This document shows, one piece after another, positions 16,862 to 26,982 of a DNA stretch of 64,000 nucleotides; positions within the stretch are counted from its first letter, which is position 1; every line of letters begins with the position of its first letter. The position numbers were made by a program, and so were the translations under genes. The DNA is taken from the NCBI GenBank assembly GCA_903899015.1, contig CAIUHP010000043.1, forward strand, positions 216,764 through 280,763. The letters run 5' to 3'. This DNA comes from an uncultured Armatimonadota bacterium. Its GTDB lineage: Bacteria; Armatimonadota; Fimbriimonadia; Fimbriimonadales; Fimbriimonadaceae. The notes below the pieces were generated by a model that ran no database searches, had not been told where the DNA came from, and saw nothing but the letters and a program-made list of their open reading frames with translations.

Positions 16862-18502
16862 ATGGAAAGTTCGGATCAAAGCAGAGTTGATTCTGCGCTT
16901 GTTGAAGCGGCAGAACAAAAGCGATTAGATGTCCTCTATTCGTATCACCTCCTTGATGCATCGATAGCGGATGAATATGCCAATGTCGTTGCACTAGCCG
17001 CGAACATTTTGGGAGTGCCGGACGGCTATGTCACTTTGCTTGACCATGATCGCCAGTGGATTAAAGCGGCCGTGAATCCCGATTGCATCGGGTCAGGACC
17101 GATGGAAGATTCGTTCTGCCGACATATGATCAACACTCACCAGCCAATGATTGTTGAGGACGCGAGCCTTCACGAGATTTTCAAGGCCTACGAGAACGTC
17201 TGCGGTTCTCCCTTTATTCGATTTTATGCGGGTGTTCCCCTTGAAGCTCCCGAAGGTGAAGTATTAGGAGCCCTTTGTGTCACAGACTCCAAACCCCGCC
17301 AAATTTCTGAGGAGCAGATCCGCGTACTACAAATTCTCGCAAAGCAGGTCCAGAACCAAATGGAGCTTCGCCGAACTTCAATCCGCCTCCAAGCGGCGCT
17401 TCTTGAAGCTAAAGAAGCGAGGAAATCAAGGGATCTGTTTTTTGCAAGCGTCAGCCACGACATTAGAACGCCTGCCGCTGCGATAGTGGGCGCCTCGCAT
17501 ATCTTGTCCCACGAAAAGTTGCCTGATAATGCACTCAAGCTTGTTGAAGGCATTGAAATTCAAGGCAAGCTCCTAACCCTCCTCATCAACAATCTCCTCG
17601 ACTTAGCAAAGTTGGATGCAGGAAAATTCGAACTCGTGAAGTCAACGTTCGACCTCTCAACGCTCGTACGAGAAGTTATCGAAGGGCAGAATCCGGTCGC
17701 CAGGGGCAAGAACATCGATTTGTGTTGGAGCTACGCTCCCGAGCTAGGCACGACGGTTGTGGGAGACCCCCTACGCCTGCGTCAGATTCTTGGCAACCTC
17801 ATTTCGAACGCAATCAAATTCACCAGTGAAGGTTCAGTGGTGCTGAGTGCGAGAAAGAGCGAAACTGGAATTCTGTTAACTGTTACCGACACGGGAATAG
17901 GGATTCCTGCTGACCGACTTGATGCAGTTCTACACGAATACGAGCAAGCCGATACCCACACTCAATCGAAATATGGAGGAACGGGTTTGGGTCTATCCAT
18001 CGTCTCAAAGTTGACGGCACTCATGAATGGGAAGCTGACGATCGCCAGCGAAATTGGAAAAGGAAGCGCATTCGCGGTGGATCTTCCGCTAGAAGAGGTC
18101 CGACTTTCTGACCTTGATAGAGAAATAAAGCGAGCATTGATCGTTGACGACAACGAAATCAACCAGTTAGTCGCCGAATCAATTCTATCGGACCTAAAAA
18201 TTCAAACTGACGTGGCAGGTTCCATTGCCAAAGCGAAAGTGCTCATTACGGAGCATCACTATGACCTCGTGCTACTTGACGAGCATCTGCCCGATGGTCG
18301 AGGAACAGATTTGGCAAAGATCATCCGCGAAAATCCCAACAACTCTCAAGTAATCGTGCTCGGCATATCGGCATCAGTTGAAGAAAGTGACGTTCAGAGC
18401 TATCACGCTGCGGGAATGAATGGTTACATGTCGAAACCCTTCACTGTCGGCCAATTACAAACTGCACTTCGATCGGCACAAGGCAATTCTGAACAGGACT
18501 AA
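16862..18502 (+). CDS. hybrid histidine kinase (GAF-HisKA-HATPase-REC)
   Basis: A 546-residue soluble sensor kinase with no membrane segment. A GAF domain (about residues 20-165, 'DDSFCRHMI'-type motif seen as 'EDSFCRHMINTHQPMIVEDA') senses an internal signal. HisKA has the phospho-acceptor His199 in 'FFASVSHDIRTPAAAIVGA'. The ATPase domain (about 300-415) has an N box ('LGNLISNAIKF') and G boxes ('DTGIGIP', 'GGTGLGLSIV'). The receiver domain (about 425-540) has Asp473 in 'LVLLDEHLPDGRG' and Lys in 'MSKPF'. No output domain or partner regulator is adjacent, so the phosphate is probably passed on elsewhere. Confidence 0.93.
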   Translation: MESSDQSRVDSALVEAAEQKRLDVLYSYHLLDASIADEYANVVALAANILGVPDGYVTLLDHDRQWIKAAVNPDCIGSGPMEDSFCRHMINTHQPMIVEDASLHEIFKAYENVCGSPFIRFYAGVPLEAPEGEVLGALCVTDSKPRQISEEQIRVLQILAKQVQNQMELRRTSIRLQAALLEAKEARKSRDLFFASVSHDIRTPAAAIVGASHILSHEKLPDNALKLVEGIEIQGKLLTLLINNLLDLAKLDAGKFELVKSTFDLSTLVREVIEGQNPVARGKNIDLCWSYAPELGTTVVGDPLRLRQILGNLISNAIKFTSEGSVVLSARKSETGILLTVTDTGIGIPADRLDAVLHEYEQADTHTQSKYGGTGLGLSIVSKLTALMNGKLTIASEIGKGSAFAVDLPLEEVRLSDLDREIKRALIVDDNEINQLVAESILSDLKIQTDVAGSIAKAKVLITEHHYDLVLLDEHLPDGRGTDLAKIIRENPNNSQVIVLGISASVEESDVQSYHAAGMNGYMSKPFTVGQLQTALRSAQGNSEQD

Positions 18503-18503
18503 C

Positions 18504-19109
18504 TCACCAGCTCACAAGATCAGACAAGCGAACTTCCTTTACTGCCAGCTCCCACACTTCCTCACCCTTGAAGGCCACTGATGCAACCCATGGGTCCGGA
18601 AGTTCTGGTCGCTGAACGGTCCATATTTCTCCTGTACCAACAACCTCAAAAACGGATGCGTCAACTTGATTCAAACCTTCAAGTGCAAGTGCCAACCCTC
18701 GCCCGGTACCCTTTGCGACGGCTTCACGCACCGTCCAGTCGATGAACTCTTGTTCGGACATTTCAAGCTGAGTGAGTCGCAATCGCGACTCGATATCAAG
18801 CCCGACGTCACCGTCCTGAGATAACGCAATAGCAGCCACACCCAGGGTGCTGGAACAGCTGAAACTGGGACCGTCCTCCACATAAGGCTTGCCCGCCCGG
18901 CCTTCAAGGATGGTTGGAAAGTCTCGTTTCGCTGCAGATTTCAGACTCCAAAGCCGTAATGCCCGGCTTGCAAGGGCTCGCACACGGCGATCCGAATCTC
19001 GAAACTGGGAGGCATACGCGCGATCAACCGGCGAAACTAATGAGATCAGTTCTTTCTCCTGAAGACCTTCCGTCCCCAACCAGAAAAGATTGACTTGATC
19101 AACCAGCAA
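18504..19109 (-). CDS. 4'-phosphopantetheinyl transferase (Sfp type)
   Basis: A 201-residue enzyme that converts apo carrier proteins to the holo form by adding phosphopantetheine from CoA. The Mg-binding 'GDVGLDIESR' motif (about residues 105-114) and the second motif 'FIDWTVREAVAKGTGRGLAL' are present, together with an upstream 'GRAGKPYVEDGPSFSCS'. Its start overlaps the end of the DUF418 gene by 11 bp. As the last gene of the NRPS operon, its obvious client is the carrier domain of the 1321-residue synthetase. Confidence 0.9.
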   Translation of the reverse strand: MLVDQVNLFWLGTEGLQEKELISLVSPVDRAYASQFRDSDRRVRALASRALRLWSLKSAAKRDFPTILEGRAGKPYVEDGPSFSCSSTLGVAAIALSQDGDVGLDIESRLRLTQLEMSEQEFIDWTVREAVAKGTGRGLALALEGLNQVDASVFEVVGTGEIWTVQRPELPDPWVASVAFKGEEVWELAVKEVRLSDLVSW

Positions 19110-20145
19110 AGCTTCTCCGCTCCGAGCCTGAAATCAAGCTGACAAGCCATTCAACCGGCCCACGTTTGAATCGCCTCAGCCAAAATTCTGAAAAGCAGAC
19201 CGCGAAGACTAGGTAGCCCGCCAATGTTAGAACTCCTATTCGTGTGGGCCATTCTTCGGCGGGATACCAGTGCCTCAGGGGCAACACAACCAACAGGATG
19301 TGACCTACATAGTGACTCAGCGATGTTCGCCCGATCGCGGCGTGCCAAGAAGCCAATTTGAATTTCTGGAACTTCCCTTCCCATGCCTCCAACCCAAATA
19401 CAACCGCGAAGGCGACACCTCCACAAATGAAAAGGAAAGGAATTGAAGTTGGCACCCATTCAATCGCAAACACAGAGGACGCGGCAGGGTGCAACCACAA
19501 CACCAGAAGCCCGGTCGCCAAGGCCAAGCTTGCAGAAACAACCAGTCCTATCGTCTTCTTTAGCTTCAGATCGACTGCCAAAATTCCCAACAGGATGAAA
19601 ACAAGCCACGGCATCAAGGGATAACAACCGTCCACAAAGATCAATTTCAAAGCAGAGGAGGCGGACAAAATGGGTTCTCCACTATCGTTCCAATCGTGCG
19701 CCATCCAAGCATGCCCAACGGGACTCAAAACGGGAATCAATAGGATGAGCGCTACTGCTACGCCACCGATCATCCATTTCCCTCCCGCCCGAATGAGGGC
19801 GGCCAGTGGCAAGGCACAACCAATCGCCATCAAAACTTCCGTTGGCCAAAGAGTCAAGTGGAGGATGACGCCTAGCAGTATTAAGGCAAAAGCACGTCGG
19901 ACGATAAAGATGAAGTAGGAACGCTCGAATCGACTCTCACCCATCTGAATGGCAAGTGACATGCCCACAAGCACAAAGAAAAGTGACGCCGATTTGCCTG
20001 CGAACCACTCCGATACCATGGTCACAACCCTTCCAAGGCTAGTGGTCGCTCCCTCCGTTGGCACGAGATGCTCGATCATCATCCCCATCAGCGCAAAGCC
20101 CCGAGCAAAATCGATGGCGAGGCGACGGGGAGCAGAAACGTTCAT
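19099..20145 (-). CDS. DUF418/heparan acetyltransferase-like integral membrane protein
   Basis: A 348-residue protein with about ten membrane helices. The N-terminus 'RRLAIDFARGFALMGMMIEH' and 'ASLFFVLVGMSLAIQMGES' are typical of the DUF1624/HGSNAT-cat and DUF418 families, and the C-terminus 'GRTSLSHYVGHILL' is DUF418. Such proteins are thought to move acyl groups across membranes, though most are uncharacterised. It overlaps the NRPS gene by 4 bp upstream and the PPTase gene downstream. This argues for acylation, capping or export of the NRPS product (inference). Confidence 0.82.
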   Translation of the reverse strand: MNVSAPRRLAIDFARGFALMGMMIEHLVPTEGATTSLGRVVTMVSEWFAGKSASLFFVLVGMSLAIQMGESRFERSYFIFIVRRAFALILLGVILHLTLWPTEVLMAIGCALPLAALIRAGGKWMIGGVAVALILLIPVLSPVGHAWMAHDWNDSGEPILSASSALKLIFVDGCYPLMPWLVFILLGILAVDLKLKKTIGLVVSASLALATGLLVLWLHPAASSVFAIEWVPTSIPFLFICGGVAFAVVFGLEAWEGKFQKFKLASWHAAIGRTSLSHYVGHILLVVLPLRHWYPAEEWPTRIGVLTLAGYLVFAVCFSEFWLRRFKRGPVEWLVSLISGSERRSFAG

Positions 20146-23100
20146 GGCTCAATCGTTTCGATTTGGCGGGAAGGGGCCCCTTGGTAGCGGCGCCCTGGAA
20201 GTAAGTGCTCATGCTTCATGATCACGCTATTCGGCTCGACCCTTGTATGCTCGCCCACTACTGCCCCGTAGAGAGGAACTGTTGCTCGTCCCAGCGTGGC
20301 TCCTTTTTTAACCACGACATGACCAATTTTGAGCACACGATCTTCGAAAGTGTGAGCCTGATAGTTGGCGGAAACCGTCGCGTCGTCTTCGATAATGATC
20401 ATGTCCGGGTCGACTACCTGCGAAAACCCATCAGAAAGAACGACTCGCTTCCCGATCTTCATTCCCATTGCACGCAGGTAGGGAATGAGAAGGAGTGAGC
20501 CTTCTAACGAGTGCAGAATGGGTTCCGCCCATTCCCCCCACGCCACATATAAGAAGTCCCATCTACTGCACCAACACGACCAGAGGGGATGGATACCCTC
20601 CTTCACTTTCCCGAGCAAAGCCCATTTCAGACCCAGAACTAAACCACACAAGAATGCCGCGGTCGCAGCCCCGCTAAGGGTTGCACCCAAGACAAACGTG
20701 AGCGGCGAACGCATCCACGGAGAGAAATCTGAAAGGAAGTCCCACCAAAGATAGAAAGAGAACAAAGGGATGGCTGGAACGGTAAACCGCAACGATTCCC
20801 AAAATATTCGATTCCAAAACCGAATTGGTGTCGGTTTAAACGTAAGGTCTTCGTCAACTGGAACGATCTCACGTTTCAGTAATTCGATCGGCGGCAAACC
20901 AAACCAAGCAGTGCTTTTGGCCATCACGCAATCATCGGCAACCGTGCATACCCCTAACAGAATATTTGGCGGAAGCGATTGCCCACCAGGAATAACCGCA
21001 TGGTTCCCAACAAAGCTGTACGACGAGACCGAAACGGGTCGAAGTGTACAACGACCCTCCTGAATCGAAGGTGAACCCAAGTACACGCCGTCGGCAAAGA
21101 ACACATGGCTGTCGATAGAAATAAGCTCCGGCACGACGTCAATGATTGTGCTGATTTCGCAATCCCTTCCAATCGACATCCCCGCCATTCGAAGCCACAC
21201 GGGCCAAAACAGAGTCCCGCTCAACCATCGCCCCGATGCTTCTACCATCATAGATTTCAAGGAAACTCGCGCAAATGCCGGTGACCTCAAGGGGATCGTT
21301 CCCGGCTCAACTTTGCCCAATAACCGACACGCCATGGCTTCTAAAACGACCATTACCGGAACGCAAGCAAGAGAGATCGCCAAACAAACTCCGAGCCAAA
21401 GGGGAAGGCTCGAAAAGGCAGAAGAACTCGATTGGACAAGGCGATAGGTCACGATAAAAGCAACCTGGAACGGTAGCATCTGAACGAAATGCACGATCGA
21501 GCGTGCACACGTTAACAGAAAGGCAAACCTAATCGGGGTCATCTCTGACTGCTCCGTTTTTCTCGGCTGAGGAGTCGCACCTGCGGGCCGCGCTGGAATA
21601 CCATTCCACTTTTCCCCTTTTGGAATGATTGCCCCGGGTTCAAGCGAAGACAATGGAGTCAGCATCGAACCTTCTCCCATTTGGGAGCCTGGCCCCACCA
21701 TCGCACGTGTCTCCACAACCGAGTTGGCACCGATCTGCACACTCCCAAGTACAACTTGGCCGGCTTCTAAGTCCCACACATTGAGCACTGCGTCCTGACA
21801 TACCGCTACATTGTCTCCAATATCTAATAGATCCCAGCCCCCAAACAATGGAATCGAGCCTTGGTGGAAATAGACGTTCTTTCCAATCTTTGCTCCTAGG
21901 GCGCGAAGAGCCATATTAGCGAACTCAGTCCCTTCAAGGTTCCTCCAAGGAATTAGCCTAACAAACAGACGAACGATCCAATTGCGAACGAAAAAACTTC
22001 CCCAAACAGGTTCTTTTCCAGTTTTGTAAGTTCCAATCAGTAGTTGCTTAACAAGCACCGCCAATCCAATCGTCACGGGAGTCAAGAAGGCAATTCCAAA
22101 TAATCCGATGAGGGGCCAAACGATCAGTAGCATCGTCCAATCTCCCAACTGATCGAACCAAGGGACGCCTTTCAACATAAACCAGGCTCCCGCAGTGGAA
22201 CCAAAAACCAGTTCCATGAAAAGAACTAAGGCTTGAATGCAAGTGGCCAGGATTGGATTGCCCTTTACCGTCGGTTCCGATGAAGTTAGCGGTGTAACAG
22301 CAGCTGAAGACTTCGTCCGCTGCGCAATTCCTTCGATCGTCCGACCTTCGTAAATATCTCGAACGGTTATGGATGACGTCTCGGAATCTGTCCGTAGTAG
22401 AGTGACGATCCTCGATGCCAGCAACGAGCTTCCGCCTAGATCCGAAAAGAAGTCGTCCTTGATCGATAAAGGCTCGGTTAATCCAAAGATCTTCTGACAT
22501 GCCAGAACGACACGCTTTTCAAGATCCGATTCAGGTGGGACAAATGCGGCCGAGTGATGCTCAAAATGAGGTGCGACAAACTCGAGAGCATCTCGGCGCA
22601 ACTTGCCACCCACGCTTTTGGGAAGCACATCGCAAACCGTATAGGCGTCCGGAACCATGTATCTCGGAAGCCGTTCTCCTATAAACTCCCTGAGCTCTTC
22701 AAAATCAATCTCCTGCGCCGGGTTTTCCAAGACCAAATGTGCTGACAACCACTCTCGGTCGTCCTGTTTTTGTAATCGACAAGCAGTCTCCCGAACACCC
22801 TTAAACTGAGCAATGATTGCCTCGATTGCCTCAAGTTCAATTCGGTAACCCCGCAACTTAATTTGAGCGTCGATCCGACCGAAATAGCTTAGATTTCCGC
22901 TCGGCTCAAGTCGAACTAAGTCCCCCGTCCGATAGATTCGCCCGAATTCTGGATGCTCAACAAACTTCTTCTGAGTCACCTCGGAAAGATTTCGATATCC
23001 TCGCGCTAAGCCAATGCCAGCAAGGTAAAGCTCACCCATTTCTCCTGGCAAAGCTTCCCTGCCATCCTCTGCGGCTACATAGGCGGTGATTCCGTCAACC

Positions 23101-24107
23101 GGCTTACCAATCGTGATTTCGCCGTTTTCGACAATATCGGTCCGAACGCATGTAACCGTACATTCAGTCGGGCCATAACCGTTTACGAGTCGACGACCCG
23201 GTGCCCATGCGTTTGCCACATCCTCCGTTAACGCTTCCCCTCCGACATACAAAAGCTTGAGATTTGGAAGCGCCTCGCGCGGATTAGAACACGCCATGGT
23301 CCTCAGCAAAGTTGGCGGAGGGCACAGCACGGTGATCCGCTCATTTTGTAGCCATGCCACTAGGTCTGGCCCCAGACGAGCCGTGTCATCGTCCATGACA
23401 ACCAACGTGGCCCCGGCGGCAAAAGCAAGCCAAGTTTCTTCGACCGAAGAGTCGTAACTAGCCGAGGAACCTTGTGCGATTCGATCCTGGGCCCCCAACT
23501 GAAATTCGCGCAAGTCGGAACGCACCAAGTTTGAGATGCTTCGTTCCTCGATCATGACCCCCTTGGGCAGCCCACTGGTACCCGAAGTATAAATCAGGTA
23601 GGCGAGGCGATCTTGGCGAAGATTCTCATCGGCTTGGAAGTCTTCGGTCGGGTGAATGTCATCGCTTGAAAGGACCATCTGATGGTGGTCCGCCAGAGAA
23701 ACAAGCCGAGGAATATATTCGGGATCAGAAACAATTGCGATAGGAGTCGCATCCAACAAAATCCGCCGGATGACTTCATCAGGCAAAGCTGGTTCGATAC
23801 AAACATAGGCAAATCCCGCCCGAAGCGCTCCTAACTGAGCAGCCCACAAATGCTCCGATGCTCGCGGTACGAGAATTGCAATAATCTGTTCGCCAACTCC
23901 AAGCTCAGTAAATCGCGATGCATAGCCGGAAGCAAGATAATCAAGCTCCTCGTAAGTAACCGTGTCGCGGTATGCCCTACCAATCCCTGGCGGAATATCT
24001 AGAGCGATCTGATGAGGATTTCTTTTTGCATTAAGCGCAAAGAGGGATGGCAGATCATGCCATTCAGCTCCAACGAACCCTAATTGCCCCTCATTGGCTT
24101 CCAGCAT
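20142..24107 (-). CDS. Pls/PosA-family non-ribosomal peptide synthetase
   Basis: A 1321-residue single-module synthetase with a membrane-bound terminal domain, the layout of epsilon-poly-L-lysine synthetase. The adenylation domain (about residues 20-510) has 'LIYTSGTSGLPKGVM', 'YGPTECT', 'YRTGDLV' and Lys502 in 'GGKLRRD'. A carrier domain follows, with Ser561 in 'DDFFSDLGGSSL'. Three left-handed-beta-helix blocks (about 735-845, 975-1080, 1210-1315) alternate with hydrophobic segments. There is no thioesterase or standard condensation domain. My hand-read specificity positions are D-S-E-C-Y-G-G-V-T plus K. The Glu also occurs in codes for basic amino acids, but this is weak evidence. The product is probably an amino acid homopolymer or conjugate. 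Confidence 0.9.
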   Translation of the reverse strand: MLEANEGQLGFVGAEWHDLPSLFALNAKRNPHQIALDIPPGIGRAYRDTVTYEELDYLASGYASRFTELGVGEQIIAILVPRASEHLWAAQLGALRAGFAYVCIEPALPDEVIRRILLDATPIAIVSDPEYIPRLVSLADHHQMVLSSDDIHPTEDFQADENLRQDRLAYLIYTSGTSGLPKGVMIEERSISNLVRSDLREFQLGAQDRIAQGSSASYDSSVEETWLAFAAGATLVVMDDDTARLGPDLVAWLQNERITVLCPPPTLLRTMACSNPREALPNLKLLYVGGEALTEDVANAWAPGRRLVNGYGPTECTVTCVRTDIVENGEITIGKPVDGITAYVAAEDGREALPGEMGELYLAGIGLARGYRNLSEVTQKKFVEHPEFGRIYRTGDLVRLEPSGNLSYFGRIDAQIKLRGYRIELEAIEAIIAQFKGVRETACRLQKQDDREWLSAHLVLENPAQEIDFEELREFIGERLPRYMVPDAYTVCDVLPKSVGGKLRRDALEFVAPHFEHHSAAFVPPESDLEKRVVLACQKIFGLTEPLSIKDDFFSDLGGSSLLASRIVTLLRTDSETSSITVRDIYEGRTIEGIAQRTKSSAAVTPLTSSEPTVKGNPILATCIQALVLFMELVFGSTAGAWFMLKGVPWFDQLGDWTMLLIVWPLIGLFGIAFLTPVTIGLAVLVKQLLIGTYKTGKEPVWGSFFVRNWIVRLFVRLIPWRNLEGTEFANMALRALGAKIGKNVYFHQGSIPLFGGWDLLDIGDNVAVCQDAVLNVWDLEAGQVVLGSVQIGANSVVETRAMVGPGSQMGEGSMLTPLSSLEPGAIIPKGEKWNGIPARPAGATPQPRKTEQSEMTPIRFAFLLTCARSIVHFVQMLPFQVAFIVTYRLVQSSSSAFSSLPLWLGVCLAISLACVPVMVVLEAMACRLLGKVEPGTIPLRSPAFARVSLKSMMVEASGRWLSGTLFWPVWLRMAGMSIGRDCEISTIIDVVPELISIDSHVFFADGVYLGSPSIQEGRCTLRPVSVSSYSFVGNHAVIPGGQSLPPNILLGVCTVADDCVMAKSTAWFGLPPIELLKREIVPVDEDLTFKPTPIRFWNRIFWESLRFTVPAIPLFSFYLWWDFLSDFSPWMRSPLTFVLGATLSGAATAAFLCGLVLGLKWALLGKVKEGIHPLWSCWCSRWDFLYVAWGEWAEPILHSLEGSLLLIPYLRAMGMKIGKRVVLSDGFSQVVDPDMIIIEDDATVSANYQAHTFEDRVLKIGHVVVKKGATLGRATVPLYGAVVGEHTRVEPNSVIMKHEHLLPGRRYQGAPSRQIETIEP

Positions 24108-24109
24108 TT

Positions 24110-24592
24110 TTAAGCCAATTCCGCTTGCGCGGTTTCCATCTCCCTTAATAGGTAATCGGAAACGTTAGCACGTAGCTGTTCGCGAACCGAAGGGTCTAAA
24201 TGTTTGAACCCACGGATTAATTTGCGACATTCAGGACTGCCGCAAAGACAATGAAACGGTTCGGCCATGTCCCATTCACTTGTTTCATAGTCAAACGTGA
24301 TTTCATCACCCGAATGGATCGTTCGGGTCGCCACTAGCTCGCGTCCACGAATGCGAGCATTGGGTGAGCAACTATGATTCGTGTAGATCCATGGCGTAAG
24401 TGCAACACCATTCGCATCGACGCCAATGGAGTGTGGAACGAGATGCGTGTTGTGGTCTAGCTGAATCGAAAAGCGGGATGCCGTATCAATTACGTCGCCT
24501 GCAAGGTAGCAAATAGACTCGCCTGCTGTCACATCTCGATTGATGGACACAAAGTGCCCTCCCGTTCTTGTCCCCACACTCAATCTATGCAT
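24110..24592 (-). CDS. SET-domain protein lysine methyltransferase-like
   Basis: A 160-residue protein made almost entirely of a SET domain, an S-adenosylmethionine-dependent lysine methyltransferase fold best known from eukaryotic histone enzymes. Residues 72-78 carry the cofactor-site motif 'NHSCSPN'. 'GDEITFDYETSEWD' supplies the catalytic Tyr region, and a post-SET zinc-type cluster follows (Cys115, Cys117, Cys122 in 'CLCGSPEC'). Its stop is 2 bp before the NRPS start, so it heads the biosynthetic operon. The client could be a lysine-containing product, a carrier-bound intermediate or a protein. This is inference. Confidence 0.85.
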   Translation of the reverse strand: MHRLSVGTRTGGHFVSINRDVTAGESICYLAGDVIDTASRFSIQLDHNTHLVPHSIGVDANGVALTPWIYTNHSCSPNARIRGRELVATRTIHSGDEITFDYETSEWDMAEPFHCLCGSPECRKLIRGFKHLDPSVREQLRANVSDYLLREMETAQAELA

Positions 24593-24877: not shown

Positions 24878-25687
24878 ATGAAGCGAAGATCGTGGGTTCA
24901 TGCTTGGGGAATTGGCGGAGCGGCTTGCTGCTTTTTCATGGGAAGCGCTTTCGCGACGCAGCGGTCGATGCTCGCGAAAGATCCGTTAAACGCAGGCCTC
25001 ATTCATCGATGGCAATTCGACGGCAACTGCTTCGACTCCGTTGGCAATCTCAGCACCAAACCAGTCGGGCCAGTCGGATACACCGAGGTCGGCTCGGGGA
25101 AAGGCATAGTTTTCGACGGTTCGACAACTGGAATGGTCCTTCCGCCCGAAAAGGATATGCAGTTCCAGGCTTCGTTTTCGATCAGTGTTTGGGCAAATCT
25201 ATTCGCGCGACCTTCAGCCTCTCATATGTGGTCCGCGATAATTTTTGATGGCGATGATCGCCCCGGTTTGGATCCTTATGCATTGCAAGCGGACCCTAAC
25301 GGAAAGATCCAGTTCCTTATCACCGGAGCAGGTGGAGCGTCAACGCTCGATGCACCGATACCACTTAACACCTTTGTTTACCTAACGGCTACTTACAATA
25401 AGCAAACGGGCATCCAGAGTTTTTACGAGAATGGCAAGTTGGTCAACCAGGCCACAGGTGTCCCAAATCTAACTCCCGTAGTAGGGCTAGATGGAAATCA
25501 GAATCCTGGTATCGGAATCGGAACGAACAATGCCTTCCCGAAGAGCAGTTACCATTTTGGCTGGAATGGGATCCTTAGCGATCTTAGGATCTATAACCGA
25601 GCCCTAACACCTGCCGAGGCCCTGGAATTATTCCATCGCGGAGTCACTCGTCCGCTCGGCACAAAAATCAACCCGATCAACCCTTAA
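24878..25687 (+). CDS. secreted LamG/concanavalin A-like domain protein
   Basis: A 269-residue exported protein. A signal peptide ('HAWGIGGAACCFFMGSAFA', cut near residue 29) precedes one LamG/laminin-G-like jelly-roll. Its pattern is classic: 'LIHRWQFDGNCFDSVGN', 'FSISVWANLF', 'FVYLTATYNKQTG' and 'LSDLRIYNRALTPAEALELF'. Such domains bind glycans or other surface ligands. There is no catalytic partner domain. A GTG nine bases upstream is a competing start. The GGAG site lies 4 bp from the GTG and 13 bp from the ATG, so the choice is uncertain. The gene meets the convergent aminotransferase gene tail to tail. Confidence 0.85.
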   Translation: MKRRSWVHAWGIGGAACCFFMGSAFATQRSMLAKDPLNAGLIHRWQFDGNCFDSVGNLSTKPVGPVGYTEVGSGKGIVFDGSTTGMVLPPEKDMQFQASFSISVWANLFARPSASHMWSAIIFDGDDRPGLDPYALQADPNGKIQFLITGAGGASTLDAPIPLNTFVYLTATYNKQTGIQSFYENGKLVNQATGVPNLTPVVGLDGNQNPGIGIGTNNAFPKSSYHFGWNGILSDLRIYNRALTPAEALELFHRGVTRPLGTKINPINP

Positions 25688-26982
25688 CCAATTCCCCGCG
25701 TCCCCGCAACGATCATCGCGTCAGCGAAGCGATCAACTTCCGCGGGAGTCGTGTAGATCTGAGGAGTCACTCGAATCCCATTGAACTGAACATGTTCAAT
25801 GGGAGCCGTGACGATCTGATAATTCTTTTCAAGCCAACTTGCGAGTTCGCCCGGCTTGGTGCCCACCACTTCCACCGTGCAAATGGCACAAGAATGGTCT
25901 GCATCCAGATTCGTATGAAATCGAATATTCGGAACATCAACCAGCTTTTCGGTCCAACGTGATCGCAAATACCGTAACCGCGCCGTCTTTCTCTCCGTTC
26001 CGATCATCTCATGAAATGTCAGCGCCTCAGCGATCGCGTTGTGTACCGCCGCTTGATGGGTTCCGATTTCCTCAAATTTCCGAATGTCGTTTGTCTGGGT
26101 AAGCGCAGGGGCCATGAGTGCCCAGAGGTCCGCGACCTTCTTCCGATTTACATACAGGAGCCCGGTTCCAATCGGCGCCATCAACCACTTGTGAAGGGAC
26201 GTAGCGAAGTAATCGCACCCCAAATCTTTCTGCTGAAATGGAAACTGGGCAAATGCGTGAGCTCCGTCTACAACGACCGGAATTCCGTGTTTACGTCCCA
26301 GATCACAAATCTCCCGAACCGGAAAAATCTGCCCGTTCATAAATCCGACGTGGGACACCAAAATGATCTTGGTTCGAGACGTAATTCCTCTCTCAAAAGC
26401 ATTAATGAGTTCGGCATGACTTTTGGGCACTGCTGGAATCTCAACCTGGACCATCTTGATCCCTTCCCTTTTCTCACGTTGCTGAATCGCAAAGATCATC
26501 CGTGGATAGTCCAAAGTGGTTGTCAGAATCTCGTCTCCCGACTCCATTGGGAGTCCAAACAGACAAGTCATCAGCGATTCACTTGCGTTTCGGGTAATCG
26601 CGATTTCCTCTGAATCTGCACCAAAAAACGCTGCGAGTCGTTTGCGCACCCCTTCGATTTCAGGGTCAAGATCGCGCCACATAAAGATGCTCGGTCCCTG
26701 ATTGGCTACATCAATCTGTCTTTTAAGCGACTCGCATACAACCCTCGGTGATGGCGAACATCCTCCGTTGTTGAAGTTGATGGTGGTTGGATGGAGCGTA
26801 AACGCATTTCGAATGCCTTGCCAAAAATCCTCGTCACTGCTGTTCAATTCCGGGGCAGAAGTGGCATTCGAAATCAGTTTCTCAACTTCGTCCAAACTGG
26901 AATCCCTAAATGAAGCGGGAGTGCTAGAGTAAGAAGCGACATCGTTTGGAAATTCCATCAAGGATGGAGACGGTTTACGCAA
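25684..26982 (-). CDS. class V PLP-dependent aminotransferase (isopenicillin-N epimerase-like)
   Basis: A 432-residue fold-type I PLP enzyme of the class V group, close in pattern to isopenicillin N epimerase-like and cysteine-desulfurase-like proteins. The PLP Lys is in 'DYFATSLHKWLMAPIGTGLLY', and the cofactor Asp/His in 'IPVVVDGAHAFAQF'. 'NFNNGGCSPSPRVV' and 'ITRNASESL' are also typical. The start is uncertain: TTG at 26982 or ATG at 26958, neither with a good ribosome-binding site. Many relatives carry a Tat signal, but here the N-terminus is Ser-rich without one. The substrate is unknown. Confidence 0.85.
   Translation of the reverse strand: MRKPSPSLMEFPNDVASYSSTPASFRDSSLDEVEKLISNATSAPELNSSDEDFWQGIRNAFTLHPTTINFNNGGCSPSPRVVCESLKRQIDVANQGPSIFMWRDLDPEIEGVRKRLAAFFGADSEEIAITRNASESLMTCLFGLPMESGDEILTTTLDYPRMIFAIQQREKREGIKMVQVEIPAVPKSHAELINAFERGITSRTKIILVSHVGFMNGQIFPVREICDLGRKHGIPVVVDGAHAFAQFPFQQKDLGCDYFATSLHKWLMAPIGTGLLYVNRKKVADLWALMAPALTQTNDIRKFEEIGTHQAAVHNAIAEALTFHEMIGTERKTARLRYLRSRWTEKLVDVPNIRFHTNLDADHSCAICTVEVVGTKPGELASWLEKNYQIVTAPIEHVQFNGIRVTPQIYTTPAEVDRFADAMIVAGTRGIG

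Follow-up and report, generated by a model that had tools for sequence, protein, structure and literature searches.

A SET-domain gene and a predicted HGSNAT-fold acyltransferase gene linked to a Pls-type synthetase with an arginine-associated pocket code in Armatimonadota

The genome of an uncultured Armatimonadota bacterium (assembly 4.94 Mb, 99.87% complete) encodes a compact four-gene locus in the 64,000-nt stretch analyzed here, hereafter the window (G000:C43:216764-280763). Four tightly packed open reading frames, all on the minus strand and transcribed from 24592 to 18504, encode a SET-domain protein, a synthetase, a DUF418/HGSNAT_cat membrane protein and a protein resembling 4'-phosphopantetheinyl transferases (PPTases). 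The first gene (24110..24592) specifies a predicted methyltransferase of 160 aa (PF00856, E value 1.7e-8) that has kept the NHSC.PN, FDY and CxC..C motifs. It is followed by the gene for a synthetase of 1321 aa (20142..24107) composed of adenylation, peptidyl carrier protein (PCP) and membrane terminal domains (A-PCP-terminal-domain), then by the gene for a 348 aa membrane protein (19099..20145) matching DUF418 (5e-13) and HGSNAT_cat (2e-10), a predicted HGSNAT-fold acyltransferase, and finally by a gene with a TTG start (18504..19109) for a predicted, divergent Sfp/AcpT-type PPTase of 201 aa. A 2-bp gap separates the SET and synthetase genes, the synthetase and DUF418 genes overlap by 4 bp, and the DUF418 and PPTase genes by 11 bp; reading frames, junctions and domain matches thus agree with the co-directional arrangement given in a preliminary description of this DNA. 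A promoter scan of the stretch returned one promoter-like site, away from the operon start, where 4.5 would be expected by shuffling.

The synthetase matches Pfam families AMP-binding (6e-63), AMP-binding_C and PP-binding, and the A-PCP-terminal-domain layout of Pls-type enzymes that had been proposed for it is present. Its adenylation domain (residues 26-502, 22602..24032; PF00501 and PF13193) has intact A3, A5, A7, A8 and A10 (Lys) motifs, and its carrier domain (residues 536-596, 22320..22502; PF00550) retains the phosphopantetheine-accepting serine within DLGGSSL, so that, judged by motifs, neither domain appears to be inactive. The terminal domain (residues 638-1312, 20172..22196) has three hydrophobic regions by hydropathy and matches TIGR02353 and Hexapep, both below threshold. 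Within it, the intact motif QAHTFEDRVLK (residues 1250-1260, 20328..20360) is a candidate active site.

The TIGR02353 score of the terminal domain, 369 bits (371 as a genome match), falls under the NCBI curated cut-off of 423.1, and all nine clade members scored (the window synthetase, G028, L057, L062, L055, L101, P0013, P0107 and L034) likewise fall below it, at 355-398 bits. Across the 113 genomes of the order, four conventional Pls genes lie above the cut-off (526-559 bits); matches below it comprise G028, G000, a fragment in G032 and many short hexapeptide-type matches. The curated cut-off therefore excludes every arginine-code clade member scored, and the Streptomyces member is annotated merely as an adenylation-domain protein. 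A search of 291 genomes of the phylum with the window synthetase (threshold 1e-60, at most two candidates scored per genome) found matches in 35, including 15 with a close relative (43-69% identity) and nine in which the similarity is confined to the adenylation and carrier region. The same search yielded 13 conventional Pls loci (30-35% identity), of which G155 and G156 contribute two in addition to their close relatives; the G032 fragment is of the conventional type (28% identity) and is not counted among the 13. A scan of genome contigs with a single protein gave only three loci; one of them, L036, a weak adenylation-domain match, was not used further. In a FastTree phylogeny of 70 rows (support values are local, three long branches were flagged, and L058 was omitted as too short), a split with a support of 100 sets 11 conventional rows apart from the other 59, among them the window synthetase. 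By the NCBI cut-off and the tree, the window synthetase is, at the level of sequence, a member of a sister clade to the TIGR02353 Pls/PosA enzymes. The terminal-domain residues Q1250, H1252, FEDRV 1254-1258 and K1260 are retained across both clades.

The ten positions of the adenylation pocket code were chosen by the GrsA numbering, and the resulting code is identical, letter for letter, to the published one. The code, DSECYGGVTK, is found in 12 of the 13 readable phylum loci, window included; the exception, L058, differs by an S in place of the C. It also occurs in L034, in L035 and on the Streptomyces plasmid L101, and it is shared by 99 of the 107 homologs that could be read at every position (119 were taken; the other 12 are gapped at one position or more). 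Nine conventional phylum loci instead read DGESLGTVGK (six) or DAESIGTVIK (three). The Asp/Glu pair of the cationic pocket is kept at code positions 1 and 3 of the window synthetase, and this pair is described as important in cationic enzymes (PMC10522769). The strongest substrate clue, though taken by analogy from another species, is a published assay: a Bdellovibrionales adenylation domain with exactly the DSECYGGVTK code exhibited modest activity with L-arginine and none with the four diamino acids lysine, ornithine, diaminobutyrate and diaminopropionate (PMC10522769). Because the score is below the cut-off, the protein belongs to the sister clade and its pocket code is associated with arginine, the epsilon-poly-lysine-type substrate that its layout would suggest is probably wrong; the layout was correctly likened to that of epsilon-poly-L-lysine synthetase, but the substrate probably differs. 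Pocket code and clade separation led us to reject conventional poly-lysine synthesis as the best reading.

The SET gene is the most consistent partner of this type of synthetase. Searches of the same 291 genomes with the SET protein P0002 and with profile A4 (1e-10, up to 12 candidates scored in each genome) give the same 11 genomes, all of which lie among the 15 with a window-type synthetase (hypergeometric 5e-17, related genomes treated as independent). SET adjoins the synthetase, upstream, in nine of these 15 genomes (G000, G028, G120, G140, G141, G142, G155, G156 and G211) and was found beside none of the 13 conventional Pls genes, nine of which were read as loci, the other four being in genomes without a SET match (Fisher 8e-4 for window-type versus conventional, kinship among genomes ignored). 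G155 and G156 (L059, L062, L099, L100) provide a natural within-genome control, each possessing an arginine-code synthetase with SET and a conventional Pls without it. SET also lies directly upstream of the synthetase in L034 (Phycisphaerales) and L035 (uncultured), and in the P0107 cluster (10 member sequences) it is fused to the synthetase N-terminus; no fusion cluster beyond P0107 was found in a search confined to proteins sharing exact words. Since the SET-adjacent label is scattered in the tree, deep branches included, an old SET-synthetase link with subsequent losses looks likelier than one recent gain.

The DUF418 gene is a less regular partner. Profile A3 (E value at most 1e-20, at most 7 candidates scored per genome) matches seven of the 291 genomes, and in all seven the match is immediately downstream of a window-type synthetase, although six of the seven belong to the profile itself; in L035, DUF418 is fused to the synthetase. 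The full order SET-synthetase-DUF418-PPTase is repeated in G028, with identities of 57%, 69%, 53% and 41%, respectively, and SET, synthetase and DUF418 are also contiguous in G120, G156 and L035, the trio recurring across several bacterial families. The repeated four-gene order and the contiguous trio argue that the arrangement is more than chance, and SET and DUF418 do recur as neighbors in related genomes. An ordinary poly-diamino-acid (non-alpha-poly(amino acid), NAPAA) locus with accessory or accidental neighbors would account for the A-PCP-terminal-domain layout and for the preserved Asp/Glu pair in the cationic pocket, but it would not account for the specific linkage and fusions of SET and DUF418, nor for a pocket code and clade unlike those of conventional enzymes in the same phylum, and we regard it as very unlikely. 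The structural model of the DUF418 protein has the HGSNAT fold, with the transmembrane N-acetyltransferase (TNAT) fold spanning the whole membrane domain, whereas sequence searches against the PDB, with the single sequence and with a profile, returned nothing useful. HGSNAT itself N-acetylates a luminal amine using cytosolic acetyl-CoA (PMC11357348). Acyl transfer or export had both been suggested for this gene; the predicted fold favors the former, and the role of exporter was rejected, as the fold search ranks acyltransferases far above transporters. Histidines H26, H96, H278 and H282 are invariant.

The PPTase-like protein matches no Pfam family, ACPS included, and in an NCBIfam-type scan it has a weak AcpT match alone. 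It does contain both catalytic motifs of PPTases (GxDxE and W..xEA..K), as GLDIE and WTVREAVAK, and in the latter W, E and K are invariant across eight aligned PPTases, that of the window among them. Built from these eight sequences, a profile detects Sfp with an E value of 1.1e-23, a signal that comes largely from the clearer relatives. A PPTase is recognized after DUF418 in three loci only (G000, G028 and, by motif alone, G126), yet in the order each of the five conventional Pls loci that were read (G042, G072, G020, G029 and G032) has one as its immediate neighbor, two of these PPTases scoring below the Pfam cut-off, so the PPTase does not define the set and is a helper outside the core. 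The dedicated four-gene pathway first envisaged thus contracts to a conserved core of SET and synthetase, often with DUF418.

The AlphaFold model of the SET protein (predicted local distance difference test score 93.6) is nearest by Z score to BurB (14.6, 124 residues, 3.1 Å), followed by ASH1L (12.6, 118 residues, 2.2 Å), and the SET profile also scores BurB highest (74.5 versus 54.6 bits). BurB is a SET-fold amino-acid methyltransferase that converts methionine to S-methylmethionine, and it contacts its substrate through the main chain, so that the substrate of the window SET protein is not readable from its residues (PMC12542666). The 21 aligned SET members keep N-H-x-C, like lysine N-methyltransferases, where BurB has LHSC, and amine methylation is the chemistry that we would infer for them from sequence. 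That the SET protein is instead a protein lysine methyltransferase regulating the synthetase or another protein seems highly improbable to us, since the small-molecule enzyme BurB is the nearest relative both by profile and by Z score; the P0107 fusion would fit either role. BurB uses a free amino acid as its methyl acceptor, and the published same-code homolog, only modestly active with arginine, may prefer a larger analog (PMC10522769). Both points are compatible with a SET enzyme that acts first, on the free amino acid, the methylated and larger cationic product then being the true adenylation substrate. We consider this order unlikely: the identical code is kept in G121, which is 96% complete and in which no SET was found, and in L101, where none is annotated.

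Our preferred, though tentative, reading, to which we assign somewhat less than an even chance, is that arginine, or a cationic amino acid resembling it, is built by this locus at the membrane into an oligomer or polymer bearing N-methyl and N-acyl groups. The PPTase would prime the carrier domain with phosphopantetheine, L-arginine or a larger analog would be loaded by the adenylation domain, and the membrane terminal domain would join the residues, polymerization being proposed by homology with the Pls-type enzymes. SET would methylate an amine, be it of the monomer, of the residue bound to the carrier or of the chain, and the HGSNAT-fold DUF418 enzyme would use cytosolic acyl-CoA as the acyl donor to cap an amine, probably across the membrane. 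Domains, intact motifs, pocket code, linkage and fusions are observed and the folds are modeled; from these we infer the chemistry at each step as well as the product and how it is capped.

Several points weigh against this reading. Guanidine reacts poorly as a nucleophile in isopeptide bond formation, and the polymer chemistry may therefore differ; since the usual isopeptide bond is doubtful for arginine, the linkage may be new. The poor suitability of arginine for isopeptide polymers, together with a hexapeptide-repeat match and membrane helices like those of the published acyltransferase-like model for PosA, would also suit a terminal domain that does not polymerize and moves one arginine-like residue to a membrane lipid or glycan, where SET and the acyltransferase then modify it; this we think improbable, given that the core motif around H1252 is common to the clade and to conventional Pls. 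To return to the methylated and capped oligomer or polymer, the authors of the same-code assay, performed in another species, suspect that a larger analog is preferred over arginine (PMC10522769). The same code occurs in members in which no SET was found (G121, G123 and G210, which are 96%, 78% and 69% complete) and in L101, near whose synthetase none is annotated, so SET is not required for loading. SET was not found either in G125 (92% complete), few candidates being scored per genome, and in G124 and G126 it is on another contig, not beside the synthetase. DUF418 was not found beside the synthetase in G140, G141, G142, G155, G210 and L034, and none is annotated at L101. With so few candidates scored per genome (2, 7 or 12 by search), these absences are not absolute. 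Of the 59 rows that make up the clade in the tree, 44 have no known genomic context. On the chemical side, the first loop of the DUF418 protein P0003, where a counterpart of HGSNAT H269 would be expected, contains no His when read by eye; the root-mean-square deviation of the SET model from BurB (3.1 Å) is worse than from histone enzymes (2.2 Å); the fused P0107 SET reads KHSC where others read NH.C; and BurB methylates sulfur, not nitrogen (PMC12542666).

The locus is, on sequence grounds, a real and conserved combination built upon a known enzyme plan. The SET-synthetase-DUF418 set was not seen described in the titles and abstract openings of the published literature searched, and the terms "methyltransferase," "SET domain" and "DUF418" are absent from the main text of PMC10522769, in which the products listed for Pls-type enzymes are polymers of lysine, beta-lysine, ornithine, diaminobutyrate and diaminopropionate. 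The size of the clade, its near-invariant arginine-type pocket and the methyltransferase and acyltransferase genes conserved beside the synthetase in part of it point to tailored polycations of a new class. The product of the window locus is likely an arginine-like relative of polylysine, which would be methylated and capped. More generally, but with clearly less confidence than for the locus itself, it is possible, if doubtful, that a widespread Pls sister family makes arginine polycations that SET tailors in several lineages and that an HGSNAT-fold enzyme caps across the membrane, giving methylated, end-capped poly- or oligo-arginine. The SET fold is known mostly from histone methyltransferases, and to our knowledge its small-molecule roles besides BurB are few; if our reading is true, a SET enzyme is tied to a peptide synthetase.

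In the window, a GAF hybrid histidine kinase gene (16862-18502) converges on the operon, one base separating its end from the PPTase stop, and a class V aminotransferase-fold protein is encoded at 25684-26982, its best NCBIfam match being the periplasmic pyoverdine-tailoring PvdN, far below the cut-off. An AbiEii-like nucleotidyltransferase gene (L055 4734-5372) lies downstream of the G141 synthetase. The genes upstream of the synthetase in G121, G123 and G126, considered as SET substitutes, encode a SASA/LamG protein and phosphoesterases and were read as chance neighbors. The stand-alone SET genes of L054 (G126) and L056 (G124) adjoin sulfatase-like and formylglycine-enzyme-like genes, judged from the look of their sequences. 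On the Streptomyces plasmid L101 (NZ_CP108254.1, 16162-22281), four hypothetical genes, all close in length (~458-464 codons), come after the clade synthetase, the first of them without a Pfam match. The contigs of P0007, a synthetase relative, and P0128, a SET relative, are both 373,628 bases long and are therefore probably one contig.

Each component has a known counterpart from which it departs. The PPTase shares GLDIE and W..REA..K with Sfp-type enzymes but is too divergent for the Pfam ACPS model. The DUF418 protein is predicted to share the transmembrane N-acetyltransferase fold of human HGSNAT and bacterial YeiB/DUF418 proteins; it differs in its low identity (16%), in having no luminal domain and in the location of its conserved histidines. 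Like BurB (PDB 9l4t, 9l4v), the methionine S-methyltransferase of dimethylsulfoniopropionate synthesis, the SET protein is a small, single-domain SET-fold enzyme, and BurB is nearest to it by profile and Z score; however, the two are 27% identical over the aligned part, NHSC replaces LHSC, and the window protein is linked to a synthetase. The Bdellovibrionales cationic homo-poly(amino acid) (CHPA) synthetase OFZ39577.1, compared by its published code alone, has an identical ten-residue pocket, and the main text of PMC10522769 mentions no SET or DUF418 neighbor for it. With Pls/PosA (TIGR02353) the window synthetase shares the A-PCP-terminal-domain layout, the Asp/Glu cationic pocket, the membrane regions and the terminal motif centered on H1252. 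It is 28-32% identical to 11 conventional Pls-type sequences in contrast to 42-69% to 14 clade members, it scores below the NCBI cut-off, and its code is DSECYGGVTK rather than DAES.., DGES.. or the DMEHNGTVSK of PosA; and whereas posA is described as alone in its own operon (PMC10522769), the window synthetase is accompanied by SET and DUF418.
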